NCBI GenBank assembly: GCA_947625615.1
Contig: CANQPB010000015.1
Span: forward strand, 1 to 53,229
From: an uncultured Clostridia bacterium
GTDB taxonomy: Bacteria; Bacillota; Clostridia; Oscillospirales; Ruminococcaceae
DNA: 53,229 bases
Direction: 5' to 3'
Positions within the stretch are counted from its first letter, which is position 1. Every line of letters begins with the position of its first letter. Both the position numbers and the translations under genes were made by a program. The notes beneath the pieces were generated by a model. It made no database searches. It saw nothing but the letters and a program-made list of their open reading frames with translations, and was not told where the DNA came from. Positions 28,376 through 46,125 of this stretch are shown here, one piece after another.

Positions 28376-28404
28376 TTGACTTTTATAAAAAGTAGTAGTA
28401 TAAT
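28376..28404 (+). promoter_or_regulatory. promoter of the LytTR regulator
   Basis: TTGACT (28376-28381) and TATAAT (28399-28404) with a 17-bp spacer. The leader of about 80 nt includes a GGCC-GAAA-GGGCC hairpin; a GAGGAGGG ribosome site lies before the ATG. Confidence 0.8.
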
Positions 28405-28489
28405 ATCTCTATATTTCAGCCCGCGGCCGAAAGGGCCGGGGACGGCGAAGCCCATGATTTTGAAAGGGAAATGAGAGGAGGGCGAGCCT

Positions 28490-29239
28490 ATGCGTATTGC
28501 TGTTTGCGACGACAATGAGATAGACCGTGAGATAGTCTGCACACTTTTGCAGAGGGTCTTTGAGGAGGACAGCGTTCAGCCTGCCCCCGCGCTTGAGGCT
28601 TACGAAAACGGTCTCGTTCTGTTGGACGACATTCGCGACGGCGACTGGTTCGACATTATTCTGCTTGACATTTACATGCAGGATCATCTCGGCATAGACG
28701 TTGCGCGCAAGCTGAGAGAGGCGCACTATACCGGCGCGATAATCTTTCTCACCGCGTCGTCGGATTTTGCCATCGACGGCTACGACGTCGAGGCGGCGGG
28801 GTACATATTGAAGCCGGCGACGGTCGAGCGGCTTTCCGAGGTGCTCACAAGGGTAATAAGAGCCATCGAGGAGCGCTCCTACCCCGTGAGACGCCGAAAC
28901 GCCATGCACCGCGTGCCGCTTAGGGAAATATTATATATCGAAAGCGTCAATAACAGATGCATTCTGCACCGCCAGAACGGCGAGAGCTATAACATCTATA
29001 AGCGGCTGGACGAAATAGAATCCGAGCTTTCAGACCCGAGATTCCTGCGCTGCTCCCAGAGCTTTATAGTGAATATGGACTATATTATAAAGGCGGACAG
29101 GTCGTTTTACCTCACCACCGGCGATATCGTCCTTATCCGCCAGCGGAGCCTTAAATCTATCCAGCAGGCCTATTACGACTACCTCGCGTCGAACCGCCCG
29201 GAGGGGGCAAAAGTCCCGCTTAAGACCTCAAACAAATGA
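28490..29239 (+). CDS. LytTR-family response regulator
   Basis: A 249-residue regulator of the AgrA/LytR type. The receiver domain (1-125) has the acidic pair in CDDNE, the phosphoacceptor Asp in IILLDIYMQ near residue 60, T/A in FLTASS and Lys in ILKPA. The LytTR DNA-binding domain (about 140-240) shows VPLREILYIESVNNRCILH and FLRCSQSFIVNMDYI. No histidine kinase gene lies nearby. A two-turn direct repeat just after its stop codon suits LytTR binding and stands in front of the giant surface-protein gene, so it is the likely activator of the locus that follows. Confidence 0.92.
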   Translation: MRIAVCDDNEIDREIVCTLLQRVFEEDSVQPAPALEAYENGLVLLDDIRDGDWFDIILLDIYMQDHLGIDVARKLREAHYTGAIIFLTASSDFAIDGYDVEAAGYILKPATVERLSEVLTRVIRAIEERSYPVRRRNAMHRVPLREILYIESVNNRCILHRQNGESYNIYKRLDEIESELSDPRFLRCSQSFIVNMDYIIKADRSFYLTTGDIVLIRQRSLKSIQQAYYDYLASNRPEGAKVPLKTSNK

Positions 29240-29248
29240 TTTTTTGCC

Positions 29249-29278
29249 GAATTCACAATAAAACCTGCGGAATTCACA
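29249..29278 (+). promoter_or_regulatory. candidate LytTR-binding direct repeat
   Basis: GAATTCACA occurs at 29249-29257 and 29270-29278, two exact nonamers separated by 12 bp (21 bp start to start). AgrA-type LytTR proteins bind nine-base direct repeats with a 12-13-bp gap. A -10-like TATTAT (29307-29312) follows 28 bp later, and no -35 box is visible, as expected for an activator-dependent promoter. Confidence 0.6.
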
Positions 29279-29318
29279 AAGTCCGTGAAAAAAAGGAGGG
29301 TTGTGTTATTATATAGAC

Positions 29319-29384
29319 GGACACTCAGACTGACCTATTGTCTGAGCTTTTGTCCTCAGTTGGAAGTACATACCAGGCGGTATG
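29319..29384 (+). promoter_or_regulatory. structured leader of the giant surface-protein gene
   Basis: Two hairpins are visible: a long one with arms GGAC..CTCAGAC and GTCTGAG..GTCC (29319-29354) and CATACC/GGTATG (29369-29384). Neither has a T-run. They could stabilise the long mRNA or control its translation; no known riboswitch was recognised. Confidence 0.45.
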
Positions 29385-29418
29385 AGTAGATTTAATATTT
29401 TTGAGGAGGAATCAGATT

Positions 29419-32400
29419 ATGTCAAAAATGTTGCAGAAACTTTTGGCAGTCGGCTTAGCGTTGGCATTTTTGCTCAGCATGCCCGGCGTGTCGGCGATTG
29501 TTGAAGCAGCGAGCAGCGCGGTGCTTACGGCAGAACAGCTTGAACAAGCTATTATTGCCGACGACGGCGAAATCGATCTCGACGGAGCAAATATTGCCGT
29601 AGAGCGTACGTTAACTATTGAAAACACCGTTACAATTTCAAACGGTACAATTTCGCGCAGCAAGGACGTTAATATTTTCGACGTTAAGGGCAATTTAACG
29701 CTTGAAAATGTGACCTTGCAGGGCAGCGAGAAAGAGAAGGACACCTTTAAAAGATCAGCAGTAAAGATAGAACTTGAAGGTTCCCTTACTATGAATAATT
29801 CTACCATTACAGGATTTTATGCACAGATAGGTGGAGGAATCTACACTAACGGCAAGGCTTATCTTAATAACGGCGCCCATGTAGACGGAAACCATGTTTG
29901 GGCAGACTGGTATAGTAATGAGTACTGCTATGGTGGTGGTATTGCAATTGAAGATGGTGGATTTGTTCAAATGAACGATGGCAGTTCAGTAAGCAACAAT
30001 GAAGCTATTGGCGTTGGCGTATATGCAACTGATGTTCCTATCCTCGGCGGCGGTATTGCCATAAAAGAAGGCGGCGCCTTTACAATGAATGGCGGCGAGG
30101 TAAATTACAACCATGTTGTTAAAGGCGAACGCAATTTTAGCGTAGGCGGCGGTATTTGCATCGGCAGCGATAGCAGACCTAATTTCAAAGATTTAGGCTC
30201 GCCAGATGGAAGTAAAATACAGTTAAATGCGGGAACAATAAAGGGCAATACGGCGCGACGCGCCGGAGGCATTTACGTTCATGCCGGTACAACAATTAAC
30301 GTTTCTCGTTTAGCTGTTGTGAACAATAGTGCTTATACTGGCGGTGGCGTTTGGCTTTGCGGCACTGGCTCAGCTACTTTTTATTCTGACAGCCTTCTCG
30401 CAAACAATAGTGCCGATGGATACGGAAAAGATTTTTATAAAAATGGCTATGATGGCATGTATTCCGTGTCAAGCCTCAACAAGATTGCCCTTTCTCAAAA
30501 TCATAGAGACGGCACTGAAGTTTCTTGGTTTGACGAAGTTTACAAACAATCTATTTCTAATATTCAAGATTATATCGAAGCTTATACCATGATACTTAAG
30601 TGGGGATTTGGAGACGAAAGAAATCCTGAAACTTTTGTATCAGATGAACAGTTAGAAACATGGTTTAATAAGCATGAAGAATTGCTATATCTTTATAACG
30701 ATGCTATGGATAATATACCGTGGTTCTATGATCCAGCCATGGTTGTAACAGGTACTACAACTGATGATGTTGATTTATCGGCATATAAGTTAGTCATATC
30801 AGATAATGTTTCAGAAACAGAAGGCGGCGGAATTGCTTGCAACGGAAATCTGATTGCAGGCGAGAAAACCGGCGACCTGACCGTTAAAAAGGAAGTTGTC
30901 GGTTATGACACCGGCAAGGACTTTAGCTTTAAAGTAACCCTTGATGAAAAGCTCAACGGCGTATTCGGCGACATGACCTTTGTCGACGGCGTCGCGGGAT
31001 TCAATCTTAAGAATGGCGAAAGCTTAACCGCTAAGGAAATCCCCGAGGGAACCGGCTACACCGTTGAAGAAAAAGCCGAGGACGGCTACAATATCGCCTA
31101 CATCGGCAAGGTTGGCGAAGAATCTGTCGGCGAAGACAAGGGCACTATCCAGGCCGGCAAAACCACGGAAGTAACAGTACAGAACACATGGCCGGTAGGC
31201 GATCTGACCGTTAGCAAGGCCGTAAACATCAAAAAGGGCGAGCTAACATTCGGCGATTATATAACTGAAGAAACATTCCACTTTAAAGTTACACTTTCAA
31301 ATAAAGAAATCAACGGCACATTTGGCAATATGGATTTCGAGAACGGTGAAGCGGAGTTTGACCTCAAAAAGGGCGAATCCAAGACCGCCACCGGGCTCCC
31401 CGCGAACACCCACTACACCGTTACCGAGACCGCCAAGGACGGCTACACCTCTAACTATGAGGGCAACACCACCGAGGGCGATATCACGGCGAACGGCAAG
31501 GCAAATGCCTCCTTCGTCAACACCCGCAAGACCGGCAACCTCAGCGTTAAAAAGGTTGTCAGCGCCAAGGATCTTGACAAAGTAAAATCAAAGGCCTTTA
31601 ATTTCACCGTAAAGCTTGATACGCCTCTCACCGACACTTACGGCGACATGACCTTTACCGACGGCGAGGCAAAATTCACGCTTACCCACGAGGAAACCAA
31701 GACCGCTACCGGCCTCCCCACCGGCATTAAATATACCGTTACCGAGGAGCACAGCGAGGGCTACATCACCTCCTACACCTCTATGACCGGCGAGGCCGAC
31801 GAGAACGGCGGCTGGACCGGCGAGATTGCCGAGGGAGTTGCCAAGGTAACCGTAACCAACATTAAAAATGTCGGCGATCTGACGGTTACAAAGGTCGTTG
31901 ACGGCAGCGGAGATTTGAGCAAAGAGTTCAATTTCATCGTAACCCTCAGCGGCACCGCGGAATCCGGCGAACATGGCGAAGGAATTAACGGCCAGTATGG
32001 CGACATGGCCTTTAGCGGCGGCGTTGCTCACTTTGAGCTTAAGAGCGGCGAAAGCAAATCGGCAAACAATCTTCCCATCGGCCTTGAATACACCGTCACC
32101 GAAGCCGAAGCCGATAAGGACGATTACAAGACCTCCTACGCTGTCACCGAGAAATCTGTGGACGAAGGCGAGCCCTCTTTAGGCGTCGAATCCACCCACA
32201 GCGGCAACAGCGGCAAGATCGGCAGAGATTCGAACGGCCGCAAATGCCAGGTGGTTGTTAAAGTCACCAATACCAGACCTTTCGGCAGCCTTTCGATTAG
32301 TAAAGCTATAACAGGCGCTGATTATAAAGATTACAAAGATCAAACTTTCAAATTCAAAGTAACAGGCCCGGGCTTCACCGCGGAGGATCCCCTTATCGCT

Positions 32401-35400
32401 GAAGTAATAGGTTCAGGTGCACACACCCTCTCTCATCTCATTCCCGGCGAATACACCATTGAAGAGGTTTCTGACAGTGCGCAGCTTAAAAATTACGATT
32501 GGAACGGCGTTAAGTTCACTGACGCCAATGGCAACGAGATTACAAAGGAAGGCAACACCATTAAGGTGATCGTCAAGGCCGACGAAAACACCGCTACCGA
32601 GGTCGTTGCCACCAACTCCTACACCTCTAAGCTCGGCAAGCTCACCATTACCAAGGAAGTTAAGGGACTTGACGACGTAACCGATGCGAATATCATACAC
32701 CAAAAGTATACTTTCGATATTATTAGGAATGCAGACAACAAAGTCGTTGAAACAGTAACTCTTACAGACGGTGAGAGCAAAACCGTTGAAGATCTCACTC
32801 CCGGCACCTACACCGTTGAGGAAGTCGACGGCGATATTGAAGGATACACCAAGACCGTCACTGTCAGCGGCGACGGAGCAGTTACCGTTGAGGCCAACAA
32901 GACCGCAGAGGTCACCGTCACCAACGCCTACACCCAGATACTCGGCAGCCTTAAGATAGTCAAGACGGCTAAGTACAGCGACGGCGCCCCTGTGCCCGAA
33001 CGCACCTTCAGGTTCACCGTCACCGGCCCGAGCTATCCCAACGGCACGACAGTAGATGTCGCCGTAGACGAAAAAGGCCATGGCGAGAGCGAAGTTCTCG
33101 ACAACCTCATTCCCGGCGAGTACACCGTCACCGAGGATGCCGAAGATGCCAAGATGGAGGGCTACGAGCTTGTCACCACTGTTGGCGGAGTTACCGGCTT
33201 CTCGAAGACCGTCACGGTAGATCACACGAGCGAAACCAAGCCCGTTGAGGTAGAGGCCGTAAACACCTACACTCAGATCCTCGGAAACCTTAAGATAGTC
33301 AAGGAAGCCAAGGACACCGATGGCAAACCTGTCGGCGGCGCTCACACCTTCACGTTCACCGTCACCGGCCCGAGCTATCCCGCCCCCGGCCGTGAAGTAA
33401 CCGTCACCGTAGACGAAAACGGCCATGGCGAGAGCGAAGTTCTCAAGAATCTCATTCCCGGCGAATACACCGTTGCCGAAGTTCCCGAAAGCGCCAAGCT
33501 CGACGGCTACTACGACCCGCAGGTTGAATATGTAAGCGGCGCGACGGTAAATGTTGAGGCCGACAAGACCGCGACCGCGTCGGTCACCGTTATCAACACC
33601 TATGAGAAGCAGTACGGCGGAATGAAAATTTCCAAGCACGTCGAGATTGACAATCCGAGCGAGCTTGATAATTACGAATACAACAAGCCATTCATCATTC
33701 ACATTTACAGAAACGAGGGCGGATTTGAAGCTCTCCGCGAGATAACCGAAGGTCAGACCATTATACTCGACAATCTCGAGCCCGGCGTTTACACCGTCGA
33801 GGAAATTGAAGGAGACCTTCTTGAACAGAAATACGAAGACGGCAGCGTGGTGCAGTGGTCTCACAAGGTAACCGGCGAGAGCACGCAGATCGTCGTAGAG
33901 CCCGCAACTACCGCCGAGGGATATGTTGAGGTAAATCTGACAAACATCTATTCCCCGATAGTTGAGTGGGGCGAGCTTGAACTCACCAAGGATATCGTCC
34001 TTAACAACACCAATCCTGAAGATTATGCCGGCATTCTTGCTGAAAAGAACTTCAGATTCATAATCGACGGCCCTCTCGGCTATCAGAAAGTTAAAACCCT
34101 TTCTTACAACGAGCCTTCCGTCACCCTGAAATATCTCGTTCCCGGCATCTATACCGTCACCGAGGAGCAGAGCCCCAAGATCGACGGCTATGAATGGGTC
34201 GAGGTAGGCAGCCTCACAGTCGAAGTCAAGGCCATGCAGCAGGCCCCGGCGGTTCAGGATATCCCTGCCGAAGTGCCGGCAGTAGTCTCGATCCCGATTC
34301 CCGAGGCTCCCGAGGTGATCGCGGCCGACATGATCGCCAATCCCGCTATGAACGCTCCCGCAGGCTTCGGCATGAACGTCTTCGGCGAGGTTCCCGAGGA
34401 TCAGCCCGAGCTCTTCCCCGAGGAGATCCCCGAAATGCTCGTCACCGACATGCCCGCCCCGTTCGCTCCTCTTGACGATAACACCGTAGGCGATCCCGCC
34501 CCGGCCGATCAGGTCGTAACAAATACCGAGCCCGCAAGGCTCACAGTCACCAACACCTATAACAAGCTCGGTTCGCTTGTTCTTACAAAGAACGTCACCG
34601 GCACCTACGCCGGCGCATACGGCAAGACCTACAGCTTCACCGTCACCGGCCCGAGCTATCCCAACGGCACGACAGTATATGTCGTCGTAGATGAAGACGG
34701 CCACGGCGAGACGCAGCTTGATAACCTCAAGCCCGGCACCTACACCGTCACCGAAAAGGACAAGGAAAACCTTAAGCAGAAAGGCTTCGTGTTCAATGTC
34801 ACCGGCGAGGGAACGGCAGCCGTCGAATACGGCGAGACCGCCGGAATCACCGTGACTAACGATTATAAGGAGCTCGGCAAGCTCACCGTTACCAAGTCGG
34901 TCAAGGGTCTTCCCGAAGATCTTCTCGGCACCGAGGAATTCAACTTCGAAGTCAGAAACGAAGCCGGCGAAGCAGTTGCGGAATTCACCCTTAAGAACGG
35001 CGAGAATTATACCGTTGAAGGCCTCGAGCCCGGCACCTACACCGTCACCGAAAAGGACGCCAAGGTTGAAGGCTACGACGTCAACGTCACCGTCGAGGGA
35101 ACCGCGGAAGTCAAATACGACGCGACTGCCCTTGTCACCGTAACCAACACCTATGAGGAGCTCGGAAAGCTCACCGTCACCAAAAAGGTCGAAGGACTTG
35201 ACGGCGTGACCGACGAGAATATCCTGAATCACGAATATTCCTTCGAGGTAAGAAACGAGAAAGGCGAAACCGTCGACGCGTTCACCCTTAAAGACGGCAA
35301 AAGCTACACCGTTGAAAACCTCAAGCCCGGCACCTATGAGATAATTGAAACCAACAACGAACTTGAGGGCTACAAGCTCGACGTCAAGACCGACGGCAGC

Positions 35401-36990
35401 GCCGAAGTCGAATACGGCAAGACCGCAAACGTCACCGTAACCAACAGCTATAAGGAGCTCGGCAAGCTCACCGTCACCAAGTCTGTCGCAGGCGACAGCG
35501 AAGAAGCAAAGTGCAAGCTTTACACCTTCAAGATCGAAGGCCCTGACGGCTTCGTGAGATATGTCACCGTCACCGGCAACGGCAGCGTGACAGTCGACAA
35601 GCTCGAGCCCGGCACCTACACCGTAACCGAGGTCACCGAGACCTACACCGATGAAAACGGCGAAGAAGTCAGCGTAAACCTCAACATCGACGGCTATGCC
35701 TGGGAAGTCACAGGCCAGGGTCAGGAGGTCGTCATAGACCTTGACGACGCCGATAAGGCCGAGGGCGAAGTAACCGTCACCAACACCTACACCCGCGAGC
35801 TCGGCTCGCTGACCATCACCAAGTCGGTCGAGGGCAACAGCGACGAGGCTGAGGATAAGGTTTACACCTTCAACGTCACCGGCCCCGACGGATATTCCGC
35901 CAGCGTTACGGTCACCGGCAGCGGCAGCACCACCCTTACCGGCCTTGTCCCCGGCACCTACACCGTAACCGAGGACGACGCCGAGATCGAAGGCTTCGAG
36001 CTTGAAGTCACCGGCGGCGTAACGGTCGACGTTATTGCAAACGAAACGGCCGGCATAACGGTAACCAACACCTACACCAAGGAAGTCGGCTCGCTGACGA
36101 TCACCAAGACCGTCGCAGGCGACAGCGAGGAGGCTGAGGGCAAGACCTACACCTTCGACGTAAGCGGCCCCGACGGCTATGCCGAGACCGTAAACATCAC
36201 CGGCAATGGCAGCGTAACCCTTACCGATCTTGTCCCCGGCGTTTACACCGTTACCGAGCGCAATTCCGAGATCGACGGCTATGAGCTCACGGTCACCGGC
36301 GGCGGAACGGTAAGCGCAGTCGTCGTCAAGGACGAAACCGCTACCGCGGCATTCACTAACACCTACAGAGAGCTTCGCAGCATCTCGGTCACCAAGGAAT
36401 GGTATGTAGACGGCAACCGTGCGTTCGCACCTGCGGGAGCTTCGATCACCGTAAACCTTCTCGCCAACGGAGCCGACACCGGCAAGTCGCTGGTGATAAG
36501 CGAATCCACCGGCTGGGCCGGAACATTTGAAGAGCTCTATGTGAACGACGAGAACGGAGAGCCGATAGCCTACAGCATTTCGGAGCAAAGCTATCTCGGC
36601 TGGCAGTCTTCGGTAACCGGCAGCGCGGATTCCGGATTCGTAGTCATCAACTCCACCACCACTCCTCCCGACACGCCGGATATCCCGAACATTCCCGACA
36701 ACCCCTACTACCCGACCATTCCCGAATATCCGACTCCCGAAGAGCCCTATATTCCTCCCGTTGACATTCCCGAGCCTGATGTTCCGCTGACCGACATTCC
36801 CGACGAGCCCGAGGTTCCTCTCACCGATATCGTAGACGACGAGGTTCCGCTCTTCGACAAGGTTCCCGAAACCGGCGACGAAAGCAACACCGCCCTTTGG
36901 ATCTCCATAGCGGCCTGCTCGGCTCTCGGAATAGCGATCCTTGCGGCAGCCCTCATTCGCGACAGCAAAAAGACCAGAAAAGAAGACTAA
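29419..36990 (+). CDS. giant sortase-anchored surface protein with beta-helix and 17 isopeptide-type repeats
   Basis: A 2,523-residue secreted, wall-anchored protein. The signal peptide spans about residues 1-30. Residues 35-480 form a beta-helix-like domain with repeated GGGI and NN-rich turns. Then follow 16 repeats of about 90-150 residues, each opening G(D/K/S)LTVTK and closing VTVTNTY with an internal YTVTE. These are the Lys, Asn and Glu expected to form intramolecular isopeptide bonds in SpaA/DUF5979-like domains. A Pro/Ala/Glu-rich insert (34200-34500) breaks the tenth repeat. A seventeenth, Cna-B-like repeat and a Pro-rich stalk precede the sorting signal VPETG (36862-36876), a membrane helix and the basic tail RDSKKTRK. 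The start has GAGGAGGA upstream. Likely an adhesin or fimbrial stalk; ligand unknown. Confidence 0.9.
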   Translation: MSKMLQKLLAVGLALAFLLSMPGVSAIVEAASSAVLTAEQLEQAIIADDGEIDLDGANIAVERTLTIENTVTISNGTISRSKDVNIFDVKGNLTLENVTLQGSEKEKDTFKRSAVKIELEGSLTMNNSTITGFYAQIGGGIYTNGKAYLNNGAHVDGNHVWADWYSNEYCYGGGIAIEDGGFVQMNDGSSVSNNEAIGVGVYATDVPILGGGIAIKEGGAFTMNGGEVNYNHVVKGERNFSVGGGICIGSDSRPNFKDLGSPDGSKIQLNAGTIKGNTARRAGGIYVHAGTTINVSRLAVVNNSAYTGGGVWLCGTGSATFYSDSLLANNSADGYGKDFYKNGYDGMYSVSSLNKIALSQNHRDGTEVSWFDEVYKQSISNIQDYIEAYTMILKWGFGDERNPETFVSDEQLETWFNKHEELLYLYNDAMDNIPWFYDPAMVVTGTTTDDVDLSAYKLVISDNVSETEGGGIACNGNLIAGEKTGDLTVKKEVVGYDTGKDFSFKVTLDEKLNGVFGDMTFVDGVAGFNLKNGESLTAKEIPEGTGYTVEEKAEDGYNIAYIGKVGEESVGEDKGTIQAGKTTEVTVQNTWPVGDLTVSKAVNIKKGELTFGDYITEETFHFKVTLSNKEINGTFGNMDFENGEAEFDLKKGESKTATGLPANTHYTVTETAKDGYTSNYEGNTTEGDITANGKANASFVNTRKTGNLSVKKVVSAKDLDKVKSKAFNFTVKLDTPLTDTYGDMTFTDGEAKFTLTHEETKTATGLPTGIKYTVTEEHSEGYITSYTSMTGEADENGGWTGEIAEGVAKVTVTNIKNVGDLTVTKVVDGSGDLSKEFNFIVTLSGTAESGEHGEGINGQYGDMAFSGGVAHFELKSGESKSANNLPIGLEYTVTEAEADKDDYKTSYAVTEKSVDEGEPSLGVESTHSGNSGKIGRDSNGRKCQVVVKVTNTRPFGSLSISKAITGADYKDYKDQTFKFKVTGPGFTAEDPLIAEVIGSGAHTLSHLIPGEYTIEEVSDSAQLKNYDWNGVKFTDANGNEITKEGNTIKVIVKADENTATEVVATNSYTSKLGKLTITKEVKGLDDVTDANIIHQKYTFDIIRNADNKVVETVTLTDGESKTVEDLTPGTYTVEEVDGDIEGYTKTVTVSGDGAVTVEANKTAEVTVTNAYTQILGSLKIVKTAKYSDGAPVPERTFRFTVTGPSYPNGTTVDVAVDEKGHGESEVLDNLIPGEYTVTEDAEDAKMEGYELVTTVGGVTGFSKTVTVDHTSETKPVEVEAVNTYTQILGNLKIVKEAKDTDGKPVGGAHTFTFTVTGPSYPAPGREVTVTVDENGHGESEVLKNLIPGEYTVAEVPESAKLDGYYDPQVEYVSGATVNVEADKTATASVTVINTYEKQYGGMKISKHVEIDNPSELDNYEYNKPFIIHIYRNEGGFEALREITEGQTIILDNLEPGVYTVEEIEGDLLEQKYEDGSVVQWSHKVTGESTQIVVEPATTAEGYVEVNLTNIYSPIVEWGELELTKDIVLNNTNPEDYAGILAEKNFRFIIDGPLGYQKVKTLSYNEPSVTLKYLVPGIYTVTEEQSPKIDGYEWVEVGSLTVEVKAMQQAPAVQDIPAEVPAVVSIPIPEAPEVIAADMIANPAMNAPAGFGMNVFGEVPEDQPELFPEEIPEMLVTDMPAPFAPLDDNTVGDPAPADQVVTNTEPARLTVTNTYNKLGSLVLTKNVTGTYAGAYGKTYSFTVTGPSYPNGTTVYVVVDEDGHGETQLDNLKPGTYTVTEKDKENLKQKGFVFNVTGEGTAAVEYGETAGITVTNDYKELGKLTVTKSVKGLPEDLLGTEEFNFEVRNEAGEAVAEFTLKNGENYTVEGLEPGTYTVTEKDAKVEGYDVNVTVEGTAEVKYDATALVTVTNTYEELGKLTVTKKVEGLDGVTDENILNHEYSFEVRNEKGETVDAFTLKDGKSYTVENLKPGTYEIIETNNELEGYKLDVKTDGSAEVEYGKTANVTVTNSYKELGKLTVTKSVAGDSEEAKCKLYTFKIEGPDGFVRYVTVTGNGSVTVDKLEPGTYTVTEVTETYTDENGEEVSVNLNIDGYAWEVTGQGQEVVIDLDDADKAEGEVTVTNTYTRELGSLTITKSVEGNSDEAEDKVYTFNVTGPDGYSASVTVTGSGSTTLTGLVPGTYTVTEDDAEIEGFELEVTGGVTVDVIANETAGITVTNTYTKEVGSLTITKTVAGDSEEAEGKTYTFDVSGPDGYAETVNITGNGSVTLTDLVPGVYTVTERNSEIDGYELTVTGGGTVSAVVVKDETATAAFTNTYRELRSISVTKEWYVDGNRAFAPAGASITVNLLANGADTGKSLVISESTGWAGTFEELYVNDENGEPIAYSISEQSYLGWQSSVTGSADSGFVVINSTTTPPDTPDIPNIPDNPYYPTIPEYPTPEEPYIPPVDIPEPDVPLTDIPDEPEVPLTDIVDDEVPLFDKVPETGDESNTALWISIAACSALGIAILAAALIRDSKKTRKED
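30871..36372 (+). repeat. 16 tandem isopeptide-type repeat units inside the giant gene
   Basis: Units begin at about 30871 and run without interruption except for the linker near 34200-34500. Some pairs are very close at DNA level; for example, a stretch coding VTGPSYPNGTT is repeated at about 33020 and 34643. The similarity of neighbouring units makes the region prone to recombination and to assembly errors. Confidence 0.85.
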
Positions 36991-37027
36991 CCCCTAAAAA
37001 GCAAACATTTTTAAAGGAGTGTACTCA

Positions 37028-38374
37028 GTGCAGAATAAGACAAAATGTGTGCTGATTCTGACAATGATACTCACCATTCTTACGACGACCGCCTGTTCGC
37101 AGGCGGCCGTCGATAAGGAGCCGGTGACAAGCCCGACTGCCCAGACCACGGCGGCCACTACCCTTGCGGCCTCGTCTACCGAGGGCACAAGGGCCTCGGT
37201 TTCTGAAACCGAGGTTGAATCGCAGGTGAAAAATCCCGAGACCTCGGCCACCGAGGCGGAATCGACCGTTACCGAGCAGTCCTCGCAGAGCCTGCCCGAG
37301 ACCGCCGAACCCCTCACCTCGGAGACGGCGACGCTTAAGACCTCGGCGGCGGTGGACAAGACCGACGGCGAGGATACGCCCACGCCCGCGCCCGACGAGA
37401 AAACCGACGAGGGCGAAAGCCCCGAAAGCCCACCGGACGAGACCGATTCGACCGATTCCACCGACGCGACCGCTTCCACAAATCCGACAGGCCTGACGAG
37501 CGTTCCGACCGAGGAGCTCACCACCATTGAAGACACCAAGGTGGCGATGTCCGATTCCGAGCCGAAAACCCCGTCATATCCGCCGGTGGGCGCCCCCGGA
37601 CTTTACGAGGAGCGCTGCTCCGACGCCGTCATCGATTACTCTAACACCGAAGACGGATACATAATGGTGAAGTTCACTTCATCTACGTCAAACAGATTAA
37701 AGGTGCTGGTGCAGGGCCCCTCGACTAAGTACCAGTACGACATAAAGCCGGACGAATGGTCGGCGTTCCCGCTTTCCGACGGCGACGGCACCTACGCGGT
37801 GGGGGTATATGAAAACGTGCAGGGCACGTCCTACGCACAGGTGCTCACGGCAAACATAAGAGTTTCTCTGACCGACGAATTCGCGCCGTTTTTGCGCTCT
37901 AACCAGTATGTCGATTTCGAGTCGGCGCCGGACACCGTTTCAAAGGCGTCCGATCTCTGCGAAGACGCCGACGGCACCCTTGAAAAGGTCAGCGAGGTTT
38001 ACGATTTTGTTGTGAGCGAGCTTTCCTATGACTACGATCTTGCTTCAAACGTAAAGAGCGGCTATGTGCCGGATCTCGACAAGGTGCTTTCAAAGGAAAA
38101 GGGAATCTGCCTTGACTACGCTGGGCTTATGACCGGAATGCTTAGAAGCCAGTGCATACCCTGCAAGCTTGTCGTCGGATATGCCGGCACGGCTTACCAC
38201 GCCTGGATAAGCGTCTGGTCGGACGAGGAGGGCTGGATAGAGGACGTCATCTACTTCGACGGCGAGAGCTGGAAGCGCATGGATCCGACATTTGCCTCCA
38301 CCGGCGACAGAAGCAAATCCACGATGAAATATATCGGCGACGGAAAGAACTATTCCGCCAAATATTACTATTGA
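37028..38374 (+). CDS. lipoprotein with transglutaminase-like domain
   Basis: A 448-residue lipoprotein starting at a GTG eight bases after AAAGGAG; an in-frame GTG at 37019 overlaps that site. The signal peptide ends LTTTAC (an acceptable, not ideal, lipobox). A Thr/Glu/Pro-rich linker of about 150 residues reaches through the wall to a small beta domain and a transglutaminase-like domain whose triad is visible: Cys in KGICLDYAGLMTGMLR, His in AYHAWISVW and Asp in RMDPTFAS. Such domains act as proteases or amide-bond exchange enzymes. It starts 37 bp after the giant protein gene, suggesting co-expression and possibly action on that protein. Confidence 0.85.
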   Translation: MQNKTKCVLILTMILTILTTTACSQAAVDKEPVTSPTAQTTAATTLAASSTEGTRASVSETEVESQVKNPETSATEAESTVTEQSSQSLPETAEPLTSETATLKTSAAVDKTDGEDTPTPAPDEKTDEGESPESPPDETDSTDSTDATASTNPTGLTSVPTEELTTIEDTKVAMSDSEPKTPSYPPVGAPGLYEERCSDAVIDYSNTEDGYIMVKFTSSTSNRLKVLVQGPSTKYQYDIKPDEWSAFPLSDGDGTYAVGVYENVQGTSYAQVLTANIRVSLTDEFAPFLRSNQYVDFESAPDTVSKASDLCEDADGTLEKVSEVYDFVVSELSYDYDLASNVKSGYVPDLDKVLSKEKGICLDYAGLMTGMLRSQCIPCKLVVGYAGTAYHAWISVWSDEEGWIEDVIYFDGESWKRMDPTFASTGDRSKSTMKYIGDGKNYSAKYYY

Positions 38375-38384
38375 CCTGTAAATA

Positions 38385-38410
38385 ACAGGAGGGCCTTCGG
38401 GCTCTCCTGT
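38385..38410 (+). terminator. hairpin after the transglutaminase gene, possible attenuator
   Basis: Arms ACAGGAG and CTCCTGT with imperfect GC-rich pairing inside. No T-run follows, so it may reduce rather than stop read-through into the pilus-like operon. The 93 bp after it hold no clear promoter. Confidence 0.45.
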
Positions 38411-38503
38411 CAAGTCGTTATATAAAGGCTTCGCCGCGTTGTCTGCGACGGAGCCGAAAGCACTGTTCAGACAAATAAAATCACACATTGGAGGAAAACG
38501 GCA

Positions 38504-39550
38504 ATGAGTAAAAAAATGCTGACAAACAGCGAAATCAGCGCCTTTTGCCTGGGTCTTTCACTGCTCATTCATTCGGGAGTGGGAGTGGGCGACGGCCTTG
38601 CGCTTCTTGCAGAGGAGGAGACCGACGGCGAATACCGCGACATGCTCAAGGAGCTCTCCGAGAGCGCCGACAGCGGCGTTTCGCTCGCCGAGGCGGTAAA
38701 GACAAGCGGCAGGTTCCCGGGCTATGTCTGCGGCCTTTTAGAGGTCGGAGAGAAATCCGGCCGCACCGAGGAGGCGCTTTCCGCCCTTGCGCGCTATTAT
38801 GAAGACCGCGCGAGGCTCGATCACCAGATCAAGACTGCCCTTTTGTACCCCGCAATTTTATTGGTGATAATGCTCGCGGTGATAGCCGTGCTGCTGATAA
38901 GGGTTCTACCCGTGTTCAACGAGGTTTACGCCTATTTGGGCGCAAGCCTTACCGGCATAGCCGGCGGACTTCTGTCCCTCGGCAGGGCGCTCGACGCCGC
39001 CATGCCCGTTCTTTTGGTGATACTCGGCATAGTCGTAGTGCTGATAATACTCTTTGCCGCGGTGCCGGCTTTCCGCGAAAAGCTCACCGGCTTTTGGCGC
39101 AGGCGAATGGGCGACAAGGGCGTCTCCAAGAAGATAAATACCGCCTGCTTTGCGCAGTCACTTTCGATGGGTCTTTCGAGCGGACTTCCCCTTGAGGAGG
39201 CGCTTTCGCTCGCGGGGTCTTTGCTGGACGACGTTCCCGCCGCAAAGGCAAGATGCGAGGACTGCCAAAAGCGAATCGAGAGCGGCGAATCGCTTTCGGC
39301 CGCGATGAAGGCTTCCGGCGCGCTGCCCAACACCGAATGCCGCCTTTTGGAGCTCGGCCTTCGCAGCGGCACCGGCGACGCAGCCATGGAGCAGATAGCC
39401 CGCAGGCTTTCCGAAGAGAGCGAGATCGCCCTTGAAGAATCCGTCGCAAGGGTTGAGCCCGCGCTCGTAATGGTCACCTCGGCGCTCGTCGGAATCATTC
39501 TTCTGGCGGTAATGCTTCCGCTGATGAACATTATGACGTCTATCGGGTGA
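38504..39550 (+). CDS. GspF/PilC-type inner-membrane platform protein
   Basis: A 348-residue integral membrane protein of the type II secretion/type IV pilus platform family. Two GspF domains are visible, each with the hallmark of a helix bundle ending in a G(E/L)xSG motif: LLEVGEKSGRTEEAL near residue 85 and LLELGLRSGTGDAAM near 285. Three membrane helices lie at about 115-140, 160-185 and 320-345. In these machines it links the cytoplasmic ATPase to the pilus base. It is the first gene of the seven-gene operon that ends with sortase B; the start has a TGGAGG site. Confidence 0.92.
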   Translation: MSKKMLTNSEISAFCLGLSLLIHSGVGVGDGLALLAEEETDGEYRDMLKELSESADSGVSLAEAVKTSGRFPGYVCGLLEVGEKSGRTEEALSALARYYEDRARLDHQIKTALLYPAILLVIMLAVIAVLLIRVLPVFNEVYAYLGASLTGIAGGLLSLGRALDAAMPVLLVILGIVVVLIILFAAVPAFREKLTGFWRRRMGDKGVSKKINTACFAQSLSMGLSSGLPLEEALSLAGSLLDDVPAAKARCEDCQKRIESGESLSAAMKASGALPNTECRLLELGLRSGTGDAAMEQIARRLSEESEIALEESVARVEPALVMVTSALVGIILLAVMLPLMNIMTSIG

Positions 39551-39555
39551 CGCAG

Positions 39556-39906
39556 ATGGGAAAATATACGGAAAAGAGATTTTTCGCGGTCTTAAGAGGC
39601 ATGTTCCTGCCGATAGCCGTTGTCATCGTTATCCTGATGTTCTTCACCGGGGTCTCGAATATCCAAAGCAGCAGCGGCGACGAGGGCATGCGCCAGCTTG
39701 AGGAATCTATCCGCCGCACAGCAGCCGCTTGTTATGCCTCCGAGGGGATATATCCCCCCACCGTTGAATATATGGAGGAAAAATACGGCCTGCAGATAGA
39801 TAAAGACCGCTATTACGTCGACTATAACATTTTCGCTTCAAATATAATGCCGGACTTCACCGTGCTCGACATTTCGGGAATGTCCGACGGCTCAGAAGGG
39901 CGGTAA
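39556..39906 (+). CDS. small pilin-like membrane protein 1
   Basis: A 116-residue protein with one N-terminal membrane helix (FLPIAVVIVILMFFTGVSNI) followed by a helical then mixed domain, including RRTAAACYASEGIYPPTVEYMEEKYG, a pattern seen in pseudopilin-like proteins whose globular part follows a long alpha-helix. No prepilin-peptidase site (G/A followed by a hydrophobic stretch with Glu at position 5) is present. The ATG is six bases after a GGGTGA site; a GTG at 39547 overlapping the upstream stop is an alternative start. The pilin role is inferred from size, topology and operon position. Confidence 0.65.
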   Translation: MGKYTEKRFFAVLRGMFLPIAVVIVILMFFTGVSNIQSSSGDEGMRQLEESIRRTAAACYASEGIYPPTVEYMEEKYGLQIDKDRYYVDYNIFASNIMPDFTVLDISGMSDGSEGR

Positions 39907-39910
39907 GGCT

Positions 39911-40399
39911 ATGCGTTTTAAAAGCACAAAACACCATATAGACGGCCTTATAGCGCTGCTGCTCTTCGGGGTGTTCGCGGCATGCATACTTTCGGTGCTG
40001 CTGACGGGTTCCGAGGCATACCGCCGCCTGACGGAGCGCGACCGCAGTTCCTTTGCCACGCGCACCTGCCTTGAATATGTCGCGACAAAGGTTAGGCAGG
40101 CGGGCTCGGCCGAAAGCATAAGCGTCGACAGCTTCGACGGCACCAACGCGCTTTTGATCACCGAGGACATCGGCGGCAGAAGCTATATCACCCGGGTCTA
40201 CTGCTATGACGGCTGGCTTCGCGAGATTTTCGCGGCGGCCTCCACCGAATGCAGCGCCTCTGACGGCGAAAAGATAATTCGGGCGGATTCTATGGATTTC
40301 AGCCTTGACGGCGGACTTTTAACCGCCACGCTTTCCGATTCCGATTCCGGCGCCGACAGCATCACGCTGTCGCTGCGCGAAGAGGGGGTAAGGCCATGA
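39911..40399 (+). CDS. pilin-like protein 2, DUF4860-like
   Basis: A 162-residue protein with a short basic N-terminus, a membrane helix (about residues 12-32, GLIALLLFGVFAACILSVLL) and a beta-rich exported domain containing RTCLEYVATKVRQA and ITLSLREEG. It resembles the DUF4860 proteins of clostridial pilus-like operons. The spacing of four bases from the previous gene and the ATGA overlap with the next gene show tight translational coupling. No canonical prepilin cleavage site was seen. Confidence 0.7.
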   Translation: MRFKSTKHHIDGLIALLLFGVFAACILSVLLTGSEAYRRLTERDRSSFATRTCLEYVATKVRQAGSAESISVDSFDGTNALLITEDIGGRSYITRVYCYDGWLREIFAAASTECSASDGEKIIRADSMDFSLDGGLLTATLSDSDSGADSITLSLREEGVRP

Positions 40400-40842
40400 G
40401 AAGCAAAGCGCCTCTTGCATTGATGGAACAGGCGGTTATGGTTTTGGTATTCGCGCTCGCGGCGGTTCTCTGCCTGAGGGTGTTCGTCTGGTCTGACCGC
40501 ACCTCCGAGATCGGCGCGGCGACGGATATGGCCGTTCTGAAAGCCCAGAGCGCGGCCGAGATCATTAAAAACGAAGGAAAATCCGGCCAAAGCGAGGAAG
40601 ATGTTTTAAAGGCAGTATCCACGCGCCTCGGCGGGACATACAGCGACGCGGACGCTAAGCTGACCGTCGGATATGATGCCGACTGGCAGCCGGCTGAGGG
40701 CGAGGACGTAAGATATGTTCTTGCAGCCTCGAAAGACGGCGAGGGCAGCGGCGCCCTCGGGTCGGTGCATATCGAGGTAACGGAGAACACGCAGGGCGAA
40801 ACGCTGTTTGAGATAACGGCGGCATGGCAGAAGGAGGCATAG
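40396..40842 (+). CDS. pilin-like protein 3
   Basis: A 148-residue protein with an N-terminal helix MEQAVMVLVFALAAVLCLRVFVW and a long following helix DMAVLKAQSAAEIIKNEG, then a beta-rich domain. The opening KAPLALMEQAV places a Glu five residues after a possible cleavage between Pro and Leu, the only hint of a prepilin site among the four small proteins, and it is atypical. Its start overlaps the previous stop (ATGA). Confidence 0.65.
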   Translation: MRSKAPLALMEQAVMVLVFALAAVLCLRVFVWSDRTSEIGAATDMAVLKAQSAAEIIKNEGKSGQSEEDVLKAVSTRLGGTYSDADAKLTVGYDADWQPAEGEDVRYVLAASKDGEGSGALGSVHIEVTENTQGETLFEITAAWQKEA

Positions 40843-40843
40843 T

Positions 40844-41263
40844 ATGAACGGTGAAAAAAGGCGTTTTTCTCCGCCGGCAGTAGGCGGAAGCTCGCTTCTG
40901 GTAATTTTTGCGGTTCTCTGCCTCACGGTGTTCGCCATGCTTTCAATGTCGACGGTTCAGGCCGAGGACAGGCTGAGAAATTCCTCCGCAAAGGCGGTGT
41001 CGCAGTATTACGCCGCCGACGCCGAAGCCGAGAGGATCCTTTCGGAGCTCAGATTGGGGAGTATCCCCGATGGCGTGGAGCTTTCGGAGGACTTTAAAGC
41101 GAAATATTCCTGCGAAATTTCCGACACGCAGACATTATTTGTTGAGGTCAGCTTTGACGGCGGCCTTGGCGACAGCTATAAAATCACCCGCTGGCAGGCT
41201 GTTTACACCGCCGACTGGACGCCCGACGACAGCTTAGGCGTTTGGACAGGCGAAGAAAGCTGA
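40844..41263 (+). CDS. pilin-like protein 4
   Basis: A 139-residue protein. The N-terminus GGSSLLVIFAVLCLTVFAMLSMSTV is a membrane helix preceded by SPPAVGG, and the next segment SAKAVSQYYAADAEAERILSELR is a long amphipathic helix, recalling PilX-type minor pilins that open with GxxLLVxxVLL. The Glu at position 5 is missing. One base separates it from the preceding gene and nine from the PilT gene. Confidence 0.65.
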   Translation: MNGEKRRFSPPAVGGSSLLVIFAVLCLTVFAMLSMSTVQAEDRLRNSSAKAVSQYYAADAEAERILSELRLGSIPDGVELSEDFKAKYSCEISDTQTLFVEVSFDGGLGDSYKITRWQAVYTADWTPDDSLGVWTGEES

Positions 41264-41272
41264 GGATAGATT

Positions 41273-42328
41273 ATGGAAATTGTTGATTATCTGTGCAAAG
41301 CGGTCGAAAGCGGCGCGTCCGATCTTTTCGTCGTCGCCGGCGGCACGGTCAGCTGCAAGGTCAAGGGGCAGATTTTAGGCGTAAGCGAGCAGAAGATCTT
41401 CCCCGACGAGACCGAGCGCCTTATAAGAGATCTTTACGTCCAGGCGGACAGGGATATCTCCCGCTACATAGAATCGGGGGACGACGACTTTTCCTTTGCT
41501 GTCGGCGGCCTTGCAAGATTCAGGGTGAACGCCTACCGCCAGCGCGGCTCGATGGCCGCGGTGGTAAGGGTGGTTGCGTTCAATATCCCCGACTATAGGG
41601 AGATGCACATTCCCGAGCAGGTTATTGACCTCGCCGAGGTAGACCACGGAATGGTGCTCGTCACCGGCACGGCAGGCAGCGGAAAATCGACCACGCAGGC
41701 CTGCATTATAGACCGCGTGAACCGCACCCGCAGCTGCCATATCATCACCCTTGAAGACCCGATAGAATATCTGCACCGCGACCAGAAGAGCATTATAAGC
41801 CAGCGCGAGATAGCCATAGACACCGAAAACTATCTCACCGCGCTGCGCGCATGCCTAAGGCAGGCGCCCGACGTCATACTTCTCGGCGAAATGCGTGACC
41901 ACGAGACCATTCGCACCGCGATGACCGCTGCCGAGACGGGCCACCTTATCATAGCCACGCTTCACACAAGCGGCGCCGTGAACACCATCGACAGAATAAT
42001 AGATTCCTTCCCCTCGGCCCAGCAGGCGCAGATAAGGATCCAGCTCAGCGCGGTTCTGCACACCGTAGTCTCGCAGCAGCTTATCCCCGCAAAGGACGGC
42101 GGAATGGTGCCGGCATATGAGATCATGCATATGAACAGCGCGATAAAAAGCCTTATCCGTGACAGCAAGAGCCACCAGATAGACAACGCCATCACCTCGG
42201 GCGGCGCCGAGGGAATGATAACAATGGATCAGTCGATACTCAATCTCTATAAAGAGGGGCTTATCGACAGGGAGACCGCGCTTGGATATGCGGTAAATGC
42301 CGAACAGCTTAAGCGCAGAATGATTTGA
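41273..42328 (+). CDS. PilT-type hexameric ATPase
   Basis: A 351-residue cytoplasmic motor ATPase of the type IV pilus retraction family. It has an N-terminal PAS-like domain (SDLFVVAGGTVSCKVKGQI) and a RecA-like core with Walker A GTAGSGKST near residue 133, Asp box ITLEDPIEY, Walker B VILLGEMRD, and His box TLHT. Near the C-terminus AIKSLIRDSK matches the AIRNLIRE signature that separates PilT from PilB. It is the only motor gene here; no PilB-type assembly ATPase accompanies it. It could power pilus extension and retraction alone or work with an ATPase encoded elsewhere. Confidence 0.93.
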   Translation: MEIVDYLCKAVESGASDLFVVAGGTVSCKVKGQILGVSEQKIFPDETERLIRDLYVQADRDISRYIESGDDDFSFAVGGLARFRVNAYRQRGSMAAVVRVVAFNIPDYREMHIPEQVIDLAEVDHGMVLVTGTAGSGKSTTQACIIDRVNRTRSCHIITLEDPIEYLHRDQKSIISQREIAIDTENYLTALRACLRQAPDVILLGEMRDHETIRTAMTAAETGHLIIATLHTSGAVNTIDRIIDSFPSAQQAQIRIQLSAVLHTVVSQQLIPAKDGGMVPAYEIMHMNSAIKSLIRDSKSHQIDNAITSGGAEGMITMDQSILNLYKEGLIDRETALGYAVNAEQLKRRMI

Positions 42329-42339
42329 CGGAGGCATTT

Positions 42340-43203
42340 ATGAGCACCGGCGGAAAAAACATCAAACGACCTATCCTTATAACCGCGATAGTCATTTTAT
42401 GCGTCGTCTTCTGCGTTTCGGGCGGAATAGTCATCTTTGACACCGTAAGAAACGTCCGCGAAGACAGGGCTTTTGACGATCTCAAAAAGAAGCTCGGCCC
42501 CCCGGCGGCTTCCTCCGAGGCCGCGGATATCCCCGACGGCGCCGGGGAAGCGAATACCCACGCGGACGGCGAAAACGCCGAGGCTTCGGCACCCGAAAGC
42601 CCCGCAGCGGATCCTTCCGCCGAGGAGGATATAAGCGGCAGATATGACGCGCTTTACGCCGAAAATTCCGATCTGTTCGGGTGGATAACCGTTGACGGCA
42701 CAAAGATAGACTACCCGGTGATGTATACCCCCGACGACCCGGAATATTACCTCCACCGCTCATTCGAAAAGAAATATTCCTCGAGCGGCGTACCTTTCAT
42801 GGACGGCGACTGCTATGAGGGCTGCCTCAACTACATAATCTTCGGCCACCACATGCGAAACGGCACCATGTTCGCGGCGCTTATAGACTACCGCAACGAG
42901 GATTTTTGGAAGGAGCACAAGACGGTAAAGTTCGACACCCTGAAGGTTCACGGGGAATACGAGATAATCTCGGCGTTTTACAGCCAGGTTTATCATGTCG
43001 ACGAAACCGGGGTGTTCCGCTGGTATAACTACACCGATCTCACCGACGAGGCAGTGTATAACGAGTATATCGAAAACGTCAAAAAGGCGAGCCACTACGA
43101 CACCGGCGTCACCGCGGAATACGGCGACGAGCTTTTAACGCTTTCCACCTGCGGCAAGGACAATATCCAGCGGTTTGTAGTGGTTGCAAAGAAAGTAAAA
43201 TAA
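42340..43203 (+). CDS. class B sortase
   Basis: A 287-residue membrane-anchored transpeptidase. One N-terminal membrane helix (about 12-32), an acidic linker, then the sortase B fold: DLFGWITVDGTKIDYPVMYTPDDPEYYLHRSF, catalytic His in IIFGHHMRNGTMFAAL, catalytic Cys in LLTLSTC near residue 269, and Arg in NIQRFVVV. The ATG has GGAGG nine bases upstream. Sortase B enzymes of clostridia accept (S/P)PxTG-like signals, so the VPETG protein of the same locus is a likely substrate. It is the last gene of the pilus-like operon, 11 bp after the ATPase gene. Confidence 0.93.
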   Translation: MSTGGKNIKRPILITAIVILCVVFCVSGGIVIFDTVRNVREDRAFDDLKKKLGPPAASSEAADIPDGAGEANTHADGENAEASAPESPAADPSAEEDISGRYDALYAENSDLFGWITVDGTKIDYPVMYTPDDPEYYLHRSFEKKYSSSGVPFMDGDCYEGCLNYIIFGHHMRNGTMFAALIDYRNEDFWKEHKTVKFDTLKVHGEYEIISAFYSQVYHVDETGVFRWYNYTDLTDEAVYNEYIENVKKASHYDTGVTAEYGDELLTLSTCGKDNIQRFVVVAKKVK

Positions 43204-43222: not shown

Positions 43223-43262
43223 AAAAATCGCGGTATGACCTCGGTCATGCCGCGAGTTTTAT
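43223..43262. terminator. bidirectional terminator between the two surface loci
   Basis: Stem CGCGGTATGACC (43229-43240)/GGTCATGCCGCG (43243-43254) with one G-T pair, preceded by AAAAAAT and followed by AGTTTTAT. It ends both the plus-strand pilus/sortase operon and the minus-strand Pel-like operon. Confidence 0.85.
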
Positions 43263-44682: not shown

Positions 44683-45358
44683 GGTATTCTCCGTTGTACT
44701 GAATCAGCGTCGCGTCCGAAACACCCTCGAGCGCCTGTATTTTTTCAAGGAAAAGCGAGTTGCCGCCCCGGCAGAGCACCTCGTAGGTGACTTCGGTGGC
44801 GCCGGCGCGCATGGTTTTCGATTTCAGCTGGAATTTCATCTTGCCGAGGCAGCGCTGAATTTCGTCGCCGGTCTTATCGCCGGTATAGTGGGCGACGAGT
44901 ATATATATCACCCCGCGCTTGCGGCGGTGGTAAAAAACGTGCACCACAAGAATTATCACCGGGAAGGTGGCTATCGCAAGCAGATAGAGCCCCGCGCCGA
45001 GCGTGATCCCCACCGAAATGGCCCAGAAGAGGTAAAAGAGATCCATGGGGTCTTTTATCGCGGTGCGGTATCTCACTATTGACAGCGCGCCGACCATACC
45101 GAGGGAGATGATGACGTTCGAGCTTATCGCAAGGGTGAGCATAGCCGTCAGAACGGTCATGCCGACAAGGGTCGTCGCAAAGGAGCTTGAAAACACCACG
45201 CCGCCGTAATAGTGGCTGTATATCTTATAGATAAGCATGCCGAGCAGCACCGACAGCACCATCGAAATTATCACCGACGCCACAAAGTCGGTCGTGACGC
45301 CCTGCCCGCTCAAAAAGTCCTCAAGCACCGACTTCTTGAAATAATCGCTTAATTTCAT
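44675..45358 (-). CDS. DUF4956 membrane protein
   Basis: A 227-residue protein with four or five membrane helices in its first 150 residues and a soluble C-terminal domain. The segment ALSIVRYRTAIKDPMDLFYLFWAISVGI is the conserved core of DUF4956. This family is regularly encoded next to VTC-domain and CotH proteins. The ATG at 45358 has AGGAGG upstream and overlaps the VTC stop by four bases; an upstream in-frame reading to 45430 lacks a ribosome site. A role in polymer export or in supplying a substrate to the VTC partner is conceivable; function is unknown. Confidence 0.88.
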   Translation of the reverse strand: MKLSDYFKKSVLEDFLSGQGVTTDFVASVIISMVLSVLLGMLIYKIYSHYYGGVVFSSSFATTLVGMTVLTAMLTLAISSNVIISLGMVGALSIVRYRTAIKDPMDLFYLFWAISVGITLGAGLYLLAIATFPVIILVVHVFYHRRKRGVIYILVAHYTGDKTGDEIQRCLGKMKFQLKSKTMRAGATEVTYEVLCRGGNSLFLEKIQALEGVSDATLIQYNGEYHG

Positions 45359-46122: not shown

Positions 46123-46125
46123 AGG

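Follow-up and report, generated by a model that had tools for sequence, protein, structure and literature searches.

The window, a 53,229-nt stretch (contig CANQPB010000015.1) from an uncultured Clostridia bacterium of the Ruminococcaceae (GCA_947625615.1), contains ten plus-strand genes in a row between 28376 and 43203; gene calls and domain matches place all ten where an earlier note on this DNA had put them. All features described below are on the plus strand. A sigma-70-like promoter predicted by consensus only (TTGACT-17-TATAAT, 28376..28404; 11/12 consensus positions) is upstream of a gene for a LytTR response regulator (28490..29239; Pfam Response_reg and LytTR). The 161 bp between this gene and the next contain two copies of GAATTCACAA with a 21-bp period (29249..29279). 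In a pattern search, the pair was the sole match in the window at up to three mismatches and did not occur in 100 shuffles; it is a candidate binding site for the LytTR regulator. The next gene encodes a giant wall protein of 2523 amino acids (29419..36990) with DUF7601, DUF5979, SpaA and Cna_B repeat domains and a VPETG sorting signal. The gene was listed from TTG 29401, and ATG 29419, which stands after GAGGAGG, appears the likelier start. It is followed by a gene for a transglutaminase-like protein, TGL (37019..38374; Transglut_core), listed from GTG 37019, with GTG 37028, better placed after AAAGGAG, as its likelier start. TGL is probably secreted and perhaps lipid-anchored: it has a lipobox-like TTAC, and a loose form of the pattern occurs in 34 of 56 TGLs with starts as annotated, not curated.

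A 129-bp interval with a strong hairpin lacking a T tract (38385..38410; -20.1 kcal/mol) leads to a gene for a GspF/PilC-family membrane platform of short form (38504..39550; T2SSF, 156 bits). Four small proteins span 39547-41263, and the second alone has a Pfam match: p119, a major-pilin-like protein of an unnamed family (39547..39906), the DUF4860 protein (39911..40399), the minor-pilin-like p148 (40396..40842), and p139 (40844..41263). A PilT-family ATPase (41273..42328; TIGR01420, 412 bits against a cut-off of 319), a class B-like sortase (42325..43203), and a terminator-like stem-loop (43228..43255) complete the locus. The sortase scores just under the srtB cut-off (TIGR03064, 144.5 against 153.75 bits) and above that of PF04203 (41.5 against 26.6 bits), and has the TLSTC motif. 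Because the genes from GspF to the sortase are tightly packed (gaps of -4, 4, -4, 1, 9, and -4 bp), the seven-gene operon proposed earlier is credible, and given the 129-bp interval with its hairpin and the 161-bp spacer, it is probably separate from the upstream genes. The operon lacks a PilB extension ATPase. The description "PilT-only" is right for this locus and wrong for the genome, which encodes PilB, PilC, a pilin, PilD, and PilM on another contig (C19), in a locus where no PilT was seen.

We compared 84 loci from 81 genomes, chosen by DUF4860 (the G set), with 80 TGL loci in named genomes that are the best matches to the window's TGL; the combined count of 164 loci includes at least four shared records (L161/L120, L191/L043, L210/L051, and L155/L068). 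The constant unit in the G set is GspF (84/84 loci) and the four pilin-like proteins, usually with PilT (73/84). Where the five genes from GspF to p139 are all present (81 G-set loci), their order and strand are the same in 80, so the grouping is not due to chance, and the conserved block anticipated by the earlier note is borne out. The arrangement is preserved from family to family and beyond the class. TGL also co-occurs with the block, as had been proposed, and is the partner common to the group, a point that the earlier note missed: it is found in 56 of the 84 G-set loci (54 once two weak matches are dropped), and in the reverse direction all six pilus genes are present at 65 of the 80 TGL loci listed. 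The catalytic triad Cys364/His394/Asp422 (numbered from 37019) is intact in 54/54 aligned homologues. TGL may crosslink or hydrolyze its substrate, predicted here to be surface proteins. The open-licence PMC literature yielded no description of this pilus-like unit, no mention of DUF4860, no report of type IV pili with transglutaminase in clostridia or gut families, and none that links a transglutaminase-like protein with sortase and type IV pili in Firmicutes; transglutaminase is not mentioned in the main text of PMC3244431 and PMC6668835.

We defined the prepilin cleavage motif as a class III signal peptide with Gly at -1 and Glu at +5. The window's p119 lacks it, as do those of 82/84 loci, and the two exceptions are both in canonical PilB loci. 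The minor subunits have the motif in 17/84 (DUF4860), 33/83 (p148), and 0/81 (p139) loci; this partial retention in two subunits occurs above all in one early-branching family, and loci of family f29 keep the motif in minor subunits, including loci in genomes that gave no peptidase match. Glu5 of p148 is invariant (83/83), with Gly at -1 in 35/83, and a Gly of p139 is invariant (81/81); we take the p139 N terminus to resemble GspK/PilX. A p148 profile matches solved pilins (best E 8.6e-4), and the same searches with p119, DUF4860, and p139 gave nothing usable. The p119 model (pLDDT 89.5) has type IV pilins as its six best VIA rows, and p119 has 2654 relatives at E<=1e-3. The DUF4860 protein is modeled with a long N-terminal helix and a GspJ-type beta domain and matches GspJ/XcpW; it is thus predicted to be a GspJ-type minor pseudopilin.

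The operon PilTs form one clade (support 100/99) lying within a larger group of PilTs to which those of PilB loci also belong, and alignment columns show the Walker A Lys and Walker B Glu in 73/73. Ten of 12 PilB loci examined have their own PilT, and all ten in the tree fall outside the operon clade. A prepilin-peptidase match (PF01478) was found in 48 of the 81 carrier genomes, including the window's own, and none was found in the other 33. In 25 of these 33, two of them single-contig genomes, there was also no T2SSE match over the cut-off besides the operon PilT. Eleven of the 40 genomes from the order that carry the operon have an MshEN match. That many carriers lack an extension ATPase as well as a match to prepilin peptidase is a point the earlier note did not notice. 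We interpret the unit as derived from a type IV pilus by loss of the extension ATPase and of dependence on the peptidase.

Of 197 genomes in the order, 140 encode 1-8 sortases of the SrtB type, and SrtB matches lie near 8 of the 84 G-set loci and 12 of the 80 TGL loci listed. Fifteen of these 20 share the strand of the unit and lie no more than 300 bp away (15/164 loci overall), at different places in the unit. In a tree of 19 nearby and 22 other rows, with L199, L112, and L224 on long branches, a single clade of nearby sortases is rejected (AU test, p = 3e-6); the tree needs three label changes, which one gain and two losses could also account for. Since the adjoining sortases occupy varied places and are not one clade, the link is more than accident. 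The joining of pilus parts with a sortase, central to the earlier note, fails as a conserved core (20/164 loci) and stands as a recurrent optional addition to the pilus unit.

The giant wall protein is also sporadic. A search of the window, L005, and L040-L078 found only the protein itself, and the proposed association with the pilus block is repeated in one relative, locus L134 of a related MAG, where giant protein (37% identity over 1837 aligned columns), TGL, pilus genes, and sortase follow the window's order. We reject the ten genes as one conserved unit in the general case because most loci lack the sortase and giant protein in their flanks. Two loci (L136 and L137) encode a true LytTR regulator, TGL, and a giant wall protein, with no pilus genes within their 8-kb flanks. 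LytTR is not supported as the general regulator of the unit: profile matches occur in 14/84 loci, and those of L054-L056, L081, L084, and L086 resemble other receiver-domain proteins, one of them CheY-like with 120 amino acids. A BTAD-type regulator is commoner (45/164 loci, 26 of them with the gene at most 600 bp upstream of TGL). An xPxTG protein is encoded at most 1.5 kb upstream of TGL in 11/120 loci against 2.2 expected, a comparison that ignores kinship; one case is spurious (L044), L159, L162, L184, and L194 seem closely related, and L184 is without pilus genes. A control interval 2.0-3.7 kb upstream of TGL also held six xPxTG proteins.

We propose, with a probability of about 40%, that the unit is a PilT-driven short pseudopilus that needs no prepilin peptidase, forms no filament, and cooperates with TGL in acting on surface proteins. 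It would have kept GspF, the major-like p119, the GspJ-like DUF4860 protein, p148, the GspK-like p139, and PilT, and shed its extension ATPase, alignment genes, and need for the peptidase. At least p119 would stay uncleaved in the membrane, and therefore no long filament would grow. A short pseudopilus complex, cycled in the envelope by PilT and GspF, would work with TGL, presenting or gating the enzyme's action on surface proteins. In the window's lineage, the giant wall protein behind the LytTR gene and the sortase would have joined the unit, and the sortase could anchor the giant protein.

The operon could instead supply a second platform, minor pilins, and PilT to an ordinary retractable type IV pilus with PilB, PilD, and alignment proteins encoded elsewhere. 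The operon PilT could serve the C19 locus, which locus L131 of genome G093 resembles, and the peptidase matches in 48 carriers and the motifs kept in f29 fit as well. This is nonetheless unlikely, given the 25 of 81 genomes with neither a peptidase nor another T2SSE match, the PilB loci with PilTs of their own outside the operon clade, and the p119 motif missing nearly throughout. We consider it more doubtful still that, as first suggested, the ten genes are one system in which a sortase-coupled machine places the covalently anchored giant protein. The L134 arrangement, the directly adjoining sortases from more than one clade, and the excess of xPxTG proteins upstream of TGL argue for it; the rarity of nearby sortases, the control interval, the pilus-free flanks of L136 and L137, and the hairpin that parts TGL from the pilus genes argue against it.

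The comG operon has a short platform and a small major-pilin-like protein, and is not known to include a PilM-type gene. The block shares all three traits, with a major-pilin-like protein of about 107 amino acids, so a competence-like DNA-uptake pseudopilus with PilT in place of ComGA was considered. It seems improbable because the ATPase scores 412 bits as PilT but 128 as ComGA (NF041000, cut-off 300), GspF scores 187 bits as GspF but 98 as ComGB (NF041012, cut-off 240), and 33 of 81 carriers have no peptidase match. We disfavor a decaying type IV pilus remnant most strongly: lost cleavage motifs and a block without PilB, PilD, and PilM would be expected of one, but the gene order preserved from family to family and beyond the class, the invariant catalytic residues of PilT and TGL, and the many p119 relatives speak against it.

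One of the steps taken to define type IV filament systems is cleavage by prepilin peptidase behind a conserved glycine. A conserved, ATPase-intact clostridial group that seemingly does without it would directly test the roles of cleavage and extension, and PilT as the sole motor in many carriers would test whether PilT can do work besides retraction. Through its association with a transglutaminase-like enzyme, a PilT-type motor would have an output of a novel kind. The system is testable because loci also come from cultured anaerobes; TGL and all six pilus genes occur together in Anaerotignum neopropionicum DSM-3847, Flintibacter muris DSM 110149, Intestinibacillus massiliensis, Parablautia intestinalis D8-82, and Oscillibacter sp. 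1-3. More broadly, and somewhat more tentatively than for the pseudopilus itself, the unit may represent a widespread, undescribed type IV filament branch: a membrane-held pseudopilus, independent of peptidase and extension ATPase, driven by PilT, never growing a filament, operating an extracellular transglutaminase on wall proteins, and joined time and again by sortases and giant wall proteins.

A 2014 review describes prepilin leaders as invariably ending with Gly, archaea apart, and among phyla with prepilins reports the peptidase as undetected only in Nanoarchaeota (PMC4471445). The unit shares with type IVa pili a PilT over the NCBIfam cut-off, a GspF/PilC platform, and pilin-like proteins; unlike them, its operon has no PilB, PilD, or PilM, the cleavage motif is missing in p119 and eroded in other subunits, and many carriers have no peptidase match. 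Its likeness to the minor pseudopilins of type II secretion (GspI/J/K, XcpVWX) is that of the DUF4860 model to GspJ/XcpW, whereas a PilT-type motor replaces GspE and p119 has no cleavage motif. A small platform, a small major-pilin-like protein, and one PilT-size ATPase are common to the ComG pseudopilus, which differs in its type of ATPase and in the peptidase that many carriers appear to lack. The SpoIIIA-SpoIIQ envelope complex, as described in PMC2703783, has a secretion-type ATPase (SpoIIIAA) and the weakly GspF-like SpoIIIAB; the likeness to this pair is an analogy only, and in the unit pilin-like subunits stand in for the other SpoIIIA proteins. TGL shares the Cys-His-Asp triad of the transglutaminase-core enzymes 3isr and 6g49 (profile E 5.8e-9 and 5.4e-8) and is set apart from them by its own conserved N-terminal region and its genomic tie to the pilus block.

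Gene calls and domain matches bear out the positions that the earlier note gave for ten plus-strand genes, which encode a LytTR regulator, a giant wall protein, a transglutaminase-like protein (TGL), GspF, p119, a DUF4860 protein, p148, p139, PilT and a sortase. The genes from GspF to the sortase are closely packed, and the 129 bp between TGL and GspF contain a strong hairpin without a T tract. Ahead of the giant gene, GAATTCACAA occurs twice without mismatch, at 21-bp spacing and nowhere else in the window; the pair is situated downstream of the LytTR gene and upstream of a -10-like TATTAT, and may be bound by LytTR. A minus-strand open frame of 1391 aa (32413-36588), lying opposite the giant repeat gene, is probably a by-product of that gene's repeat composition. 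On the minus strand directly after the sortase gene is a Pel-like exopolysaccharide cluster (43270-52703) with a DUF3492 glycosyltransferase, PelG exporter, two CotH kinases, a VTC domain, DUF4956 and DUF4832.

The DUF4860 profile (PF16152) matches 40/197 genomes of the order, 43/392 of the class and 7/299 of the phylum, in overlapping samples. With the window, the 83 fetched loci give 84 mapped loci from 81 genomes. GspF, p119 and DUF4860 occur in all 84, p148 in 83, p139 in 81 and PilT in 73; order and strand of the five genes from GspF to p139 agree in 80 of the 81 loci in which all are present. L116-L118 represent canonical PilB loci, and their DUF4860 match is weak. L078 is without PilT, and in five loci of genus g135 PilT is missing from the block; in three genomes (G220, G356, G393) the contig carries a PilT-size match some 40 kb from it. 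A receiver-domain (CheY-like) gene follows p139, in PilT's usual place, in g135 loci L080, L081, L082, L084 and L086. The GspF-DUF4860-PilT part of the synteny proposed in the earlier note is kept; SrtB is not supported as part of that core (8/84 loci).

The proposed co-occurrence of TGL with the pilus genes holds. TGL is encoded in 56 of the 84 loci (54 once weak matches in L069 and L098 are dropped). In the reverse direction, named GTDB genomes were scanned with a TGL alignment; of the 80 loci retained, whose TGLs most resemble the one in the window, 65 have all six pilus genes, 7 none and 8 some. Of the 76 loci with enough flanking sequence, 63 have GspF downstream of TGL, same-strand and no more than 7 kb away. 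LytTR profiles match in 14/84 loci. A BTAD-type regulator, found in 45/164 loci (including L040, 3860-5056, minus strand) and within 600 bp upstream of TGL in 26, may be the more frequent regulator of this unit.

SrtB-profile matches occur near the unit in those 8 loci and in 12/80 of the TGL set (one record counted twice). The sortase is within 300 bp of PilT, TGL or GspF on the same strand in 15/20. Since TIGR03064 is found in 140/197 genomes of the order at 1-8 copies each, we roughly estimate the chance of a sortase as random neighbor within about 20 kb at a few per cent at most. A single clade of unit-adjoining sortases was rejected (AU p 3e-6). Two further sortases are on contig C14 of the window's genome. 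The end of an xPxTG protein falls in the 1.5 kb upstream of TGL in 11/120 loci (10 without L044), where the background rate in these loci predicts 2.2; the enrichment is loose because a control stretch 2.0-3.7 kb upstream also holds 6. A looser count of sorting-signal proteins, false positives included, gives 9/20 sortase-positive versus 24/144 sortase-negative loci. Locus L134, from the uncultured Clostridia MAG Lapin-012 (probably from rabbit, going by the name), has the window's gene order: repeat protein, TGL, six pilus genes, sortase. Its repeat protein (at least 2568 aa, C-terminal FPATG) has 37% identity to the giant protein. L136 and L137 encode LytTR, TGL and a divergent wall protein of 2.0-2.2k residues, with no pilus genes in their 8-kb flanks, the left half of the window's locus as an independent module.

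The prepilin peptidase profile (PF01478) has no match in 33/81 operon genomes (24/40 of the order, 9/41 others). For 25 of them, no T2SSE match over cut-off exists besides the operon PilT. Among the remaining eight, no PilT was found in G011 and G066, G065 and G162 have a second match, and G256, G261, G280 and G384 have further ATPases. An extra 25-bit T2SSE match in a 767-aa frame of G176 was taken as spurious. The one-contig genome G327 (3.0 Mb, 100% complete) has the operon's T2SSE match as its only one and no PF01478 match; G156 (one contig) resembles it in matches over cut-off.

The Gly(-1)/Glu5 cleavage motif is in p119 in 2/84 loci, DUF4860 in 17/84, p148 in 33/83 and p139 in 0/81. Glu5 of p148 is invariant (83/83), and its residue -1 is Gly in 24/50 peptidase-positive and 11/33 peptidase-negative loci. 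As a control, 12 PilB loci were examined, one in the window's genome and 11 in other operon genomes. Each encodes one or more motif-bearing proteins, mostly of GFTLVE-like form. Two weak profile matches in these loci lack the motif, and TGL has no match in any of the 12. The window's genome (2.17 Mb, 58 contigs, 99% complete) encodes its ordinary type IV pilus on contig C19, with PilB, PilC, a GFTLAE pilin, PilD, PilM and two genes without Pfam match at the usual PilN/PilO place. No PilT was seen there (L005) or in the PilB locus of G093 (L131), unlike the other 10 of the 12 examined; in each of these two genomes the operon PilT is immediately followed by a sortase gene. Beside the C19 locus, a 1838-aa subtilase (Peptidase_S8; L005, G000:C19:2000-20000, 887-6403, minus strand) has NPKTG followed by a hydrophobic tail at its C terminus.

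In the PilT tree, the 33 operon sequences group as a single clade (support 100/99). Its sister group includes PilTs of L111, L113, L114 and L122, where PilT is upstream of GspF, and of canonical L116-L118; PilTs beside PilB in operon-carrying genomes fall outside that group. Cleavage-type sequences persist in several of these loci and in L115: p148 retains GFTLVE/GFTLIE (L111, L113, L115, L122, L117, L118) or AFTMVE (L114), DUF4860 has a cleavage-type site in L116-L118 and L122, and p119 only in L117 and L118. This pattern suggests stepwise loss of the motif, p119 first. Catalytic residues are intact: PilT Walker A Lys and Walker B Glu in 73/73, TGL Cys/His/Asp in 54/54.

We assign a probability of about 0.4 to a type IV pilus derivative, a short, non-extending, PilT-cycled pseudopilus working with TGL. 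Most likely, PilT and GspF would drive a short, membrane-held complex of pilin-like proteins; a long filament is disfavored because p119 is without cleavage motif and Glu5. As TGL is the partner common to the loci, the output is probably the positioning or gating of TGL on wall proteins, and in the window the giant protein, whose gene immediately precedes that of TGL, would be the probable client. We hold tentatively that the unit may represent a widespread PilT-driven branch of type IV filaments, independent of peptidase and extension ATPase, that operates a transglutaminase on wall proteins. Family f29 retains the motif (p148 12/12 loci, DUF4860 10/12), including in three genomes without a Peptidase_A24 match (G261, G384, G506; L094, L104, L100), where both proteins keep it. 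This speaks against a simple loss story; it lowers the odds of both readings and raises those of an ordinary retractable type IV pilus with PilB, PilD and alignment proteins encoded elsewhere, which we still consider unlikely.

Our searches of open-licence PMC papers turned up no description of such a machine. By descent it is a member of the type IV filament superfamily. The sequence features tested do not establish it as a type IV pilus: the operon has no extension ATPase of its own, the major-pilin-like p119 nearly always lacks the signal-peptide motif, and a peptidase match is present in 48/81 carriers and missing from 33. As an analogy, SpoIIIAA, a secretion-type ATPase, and the weakly GspF-like SpoIIIAB show that such components can work in a different envelope complex (PMC2703783).
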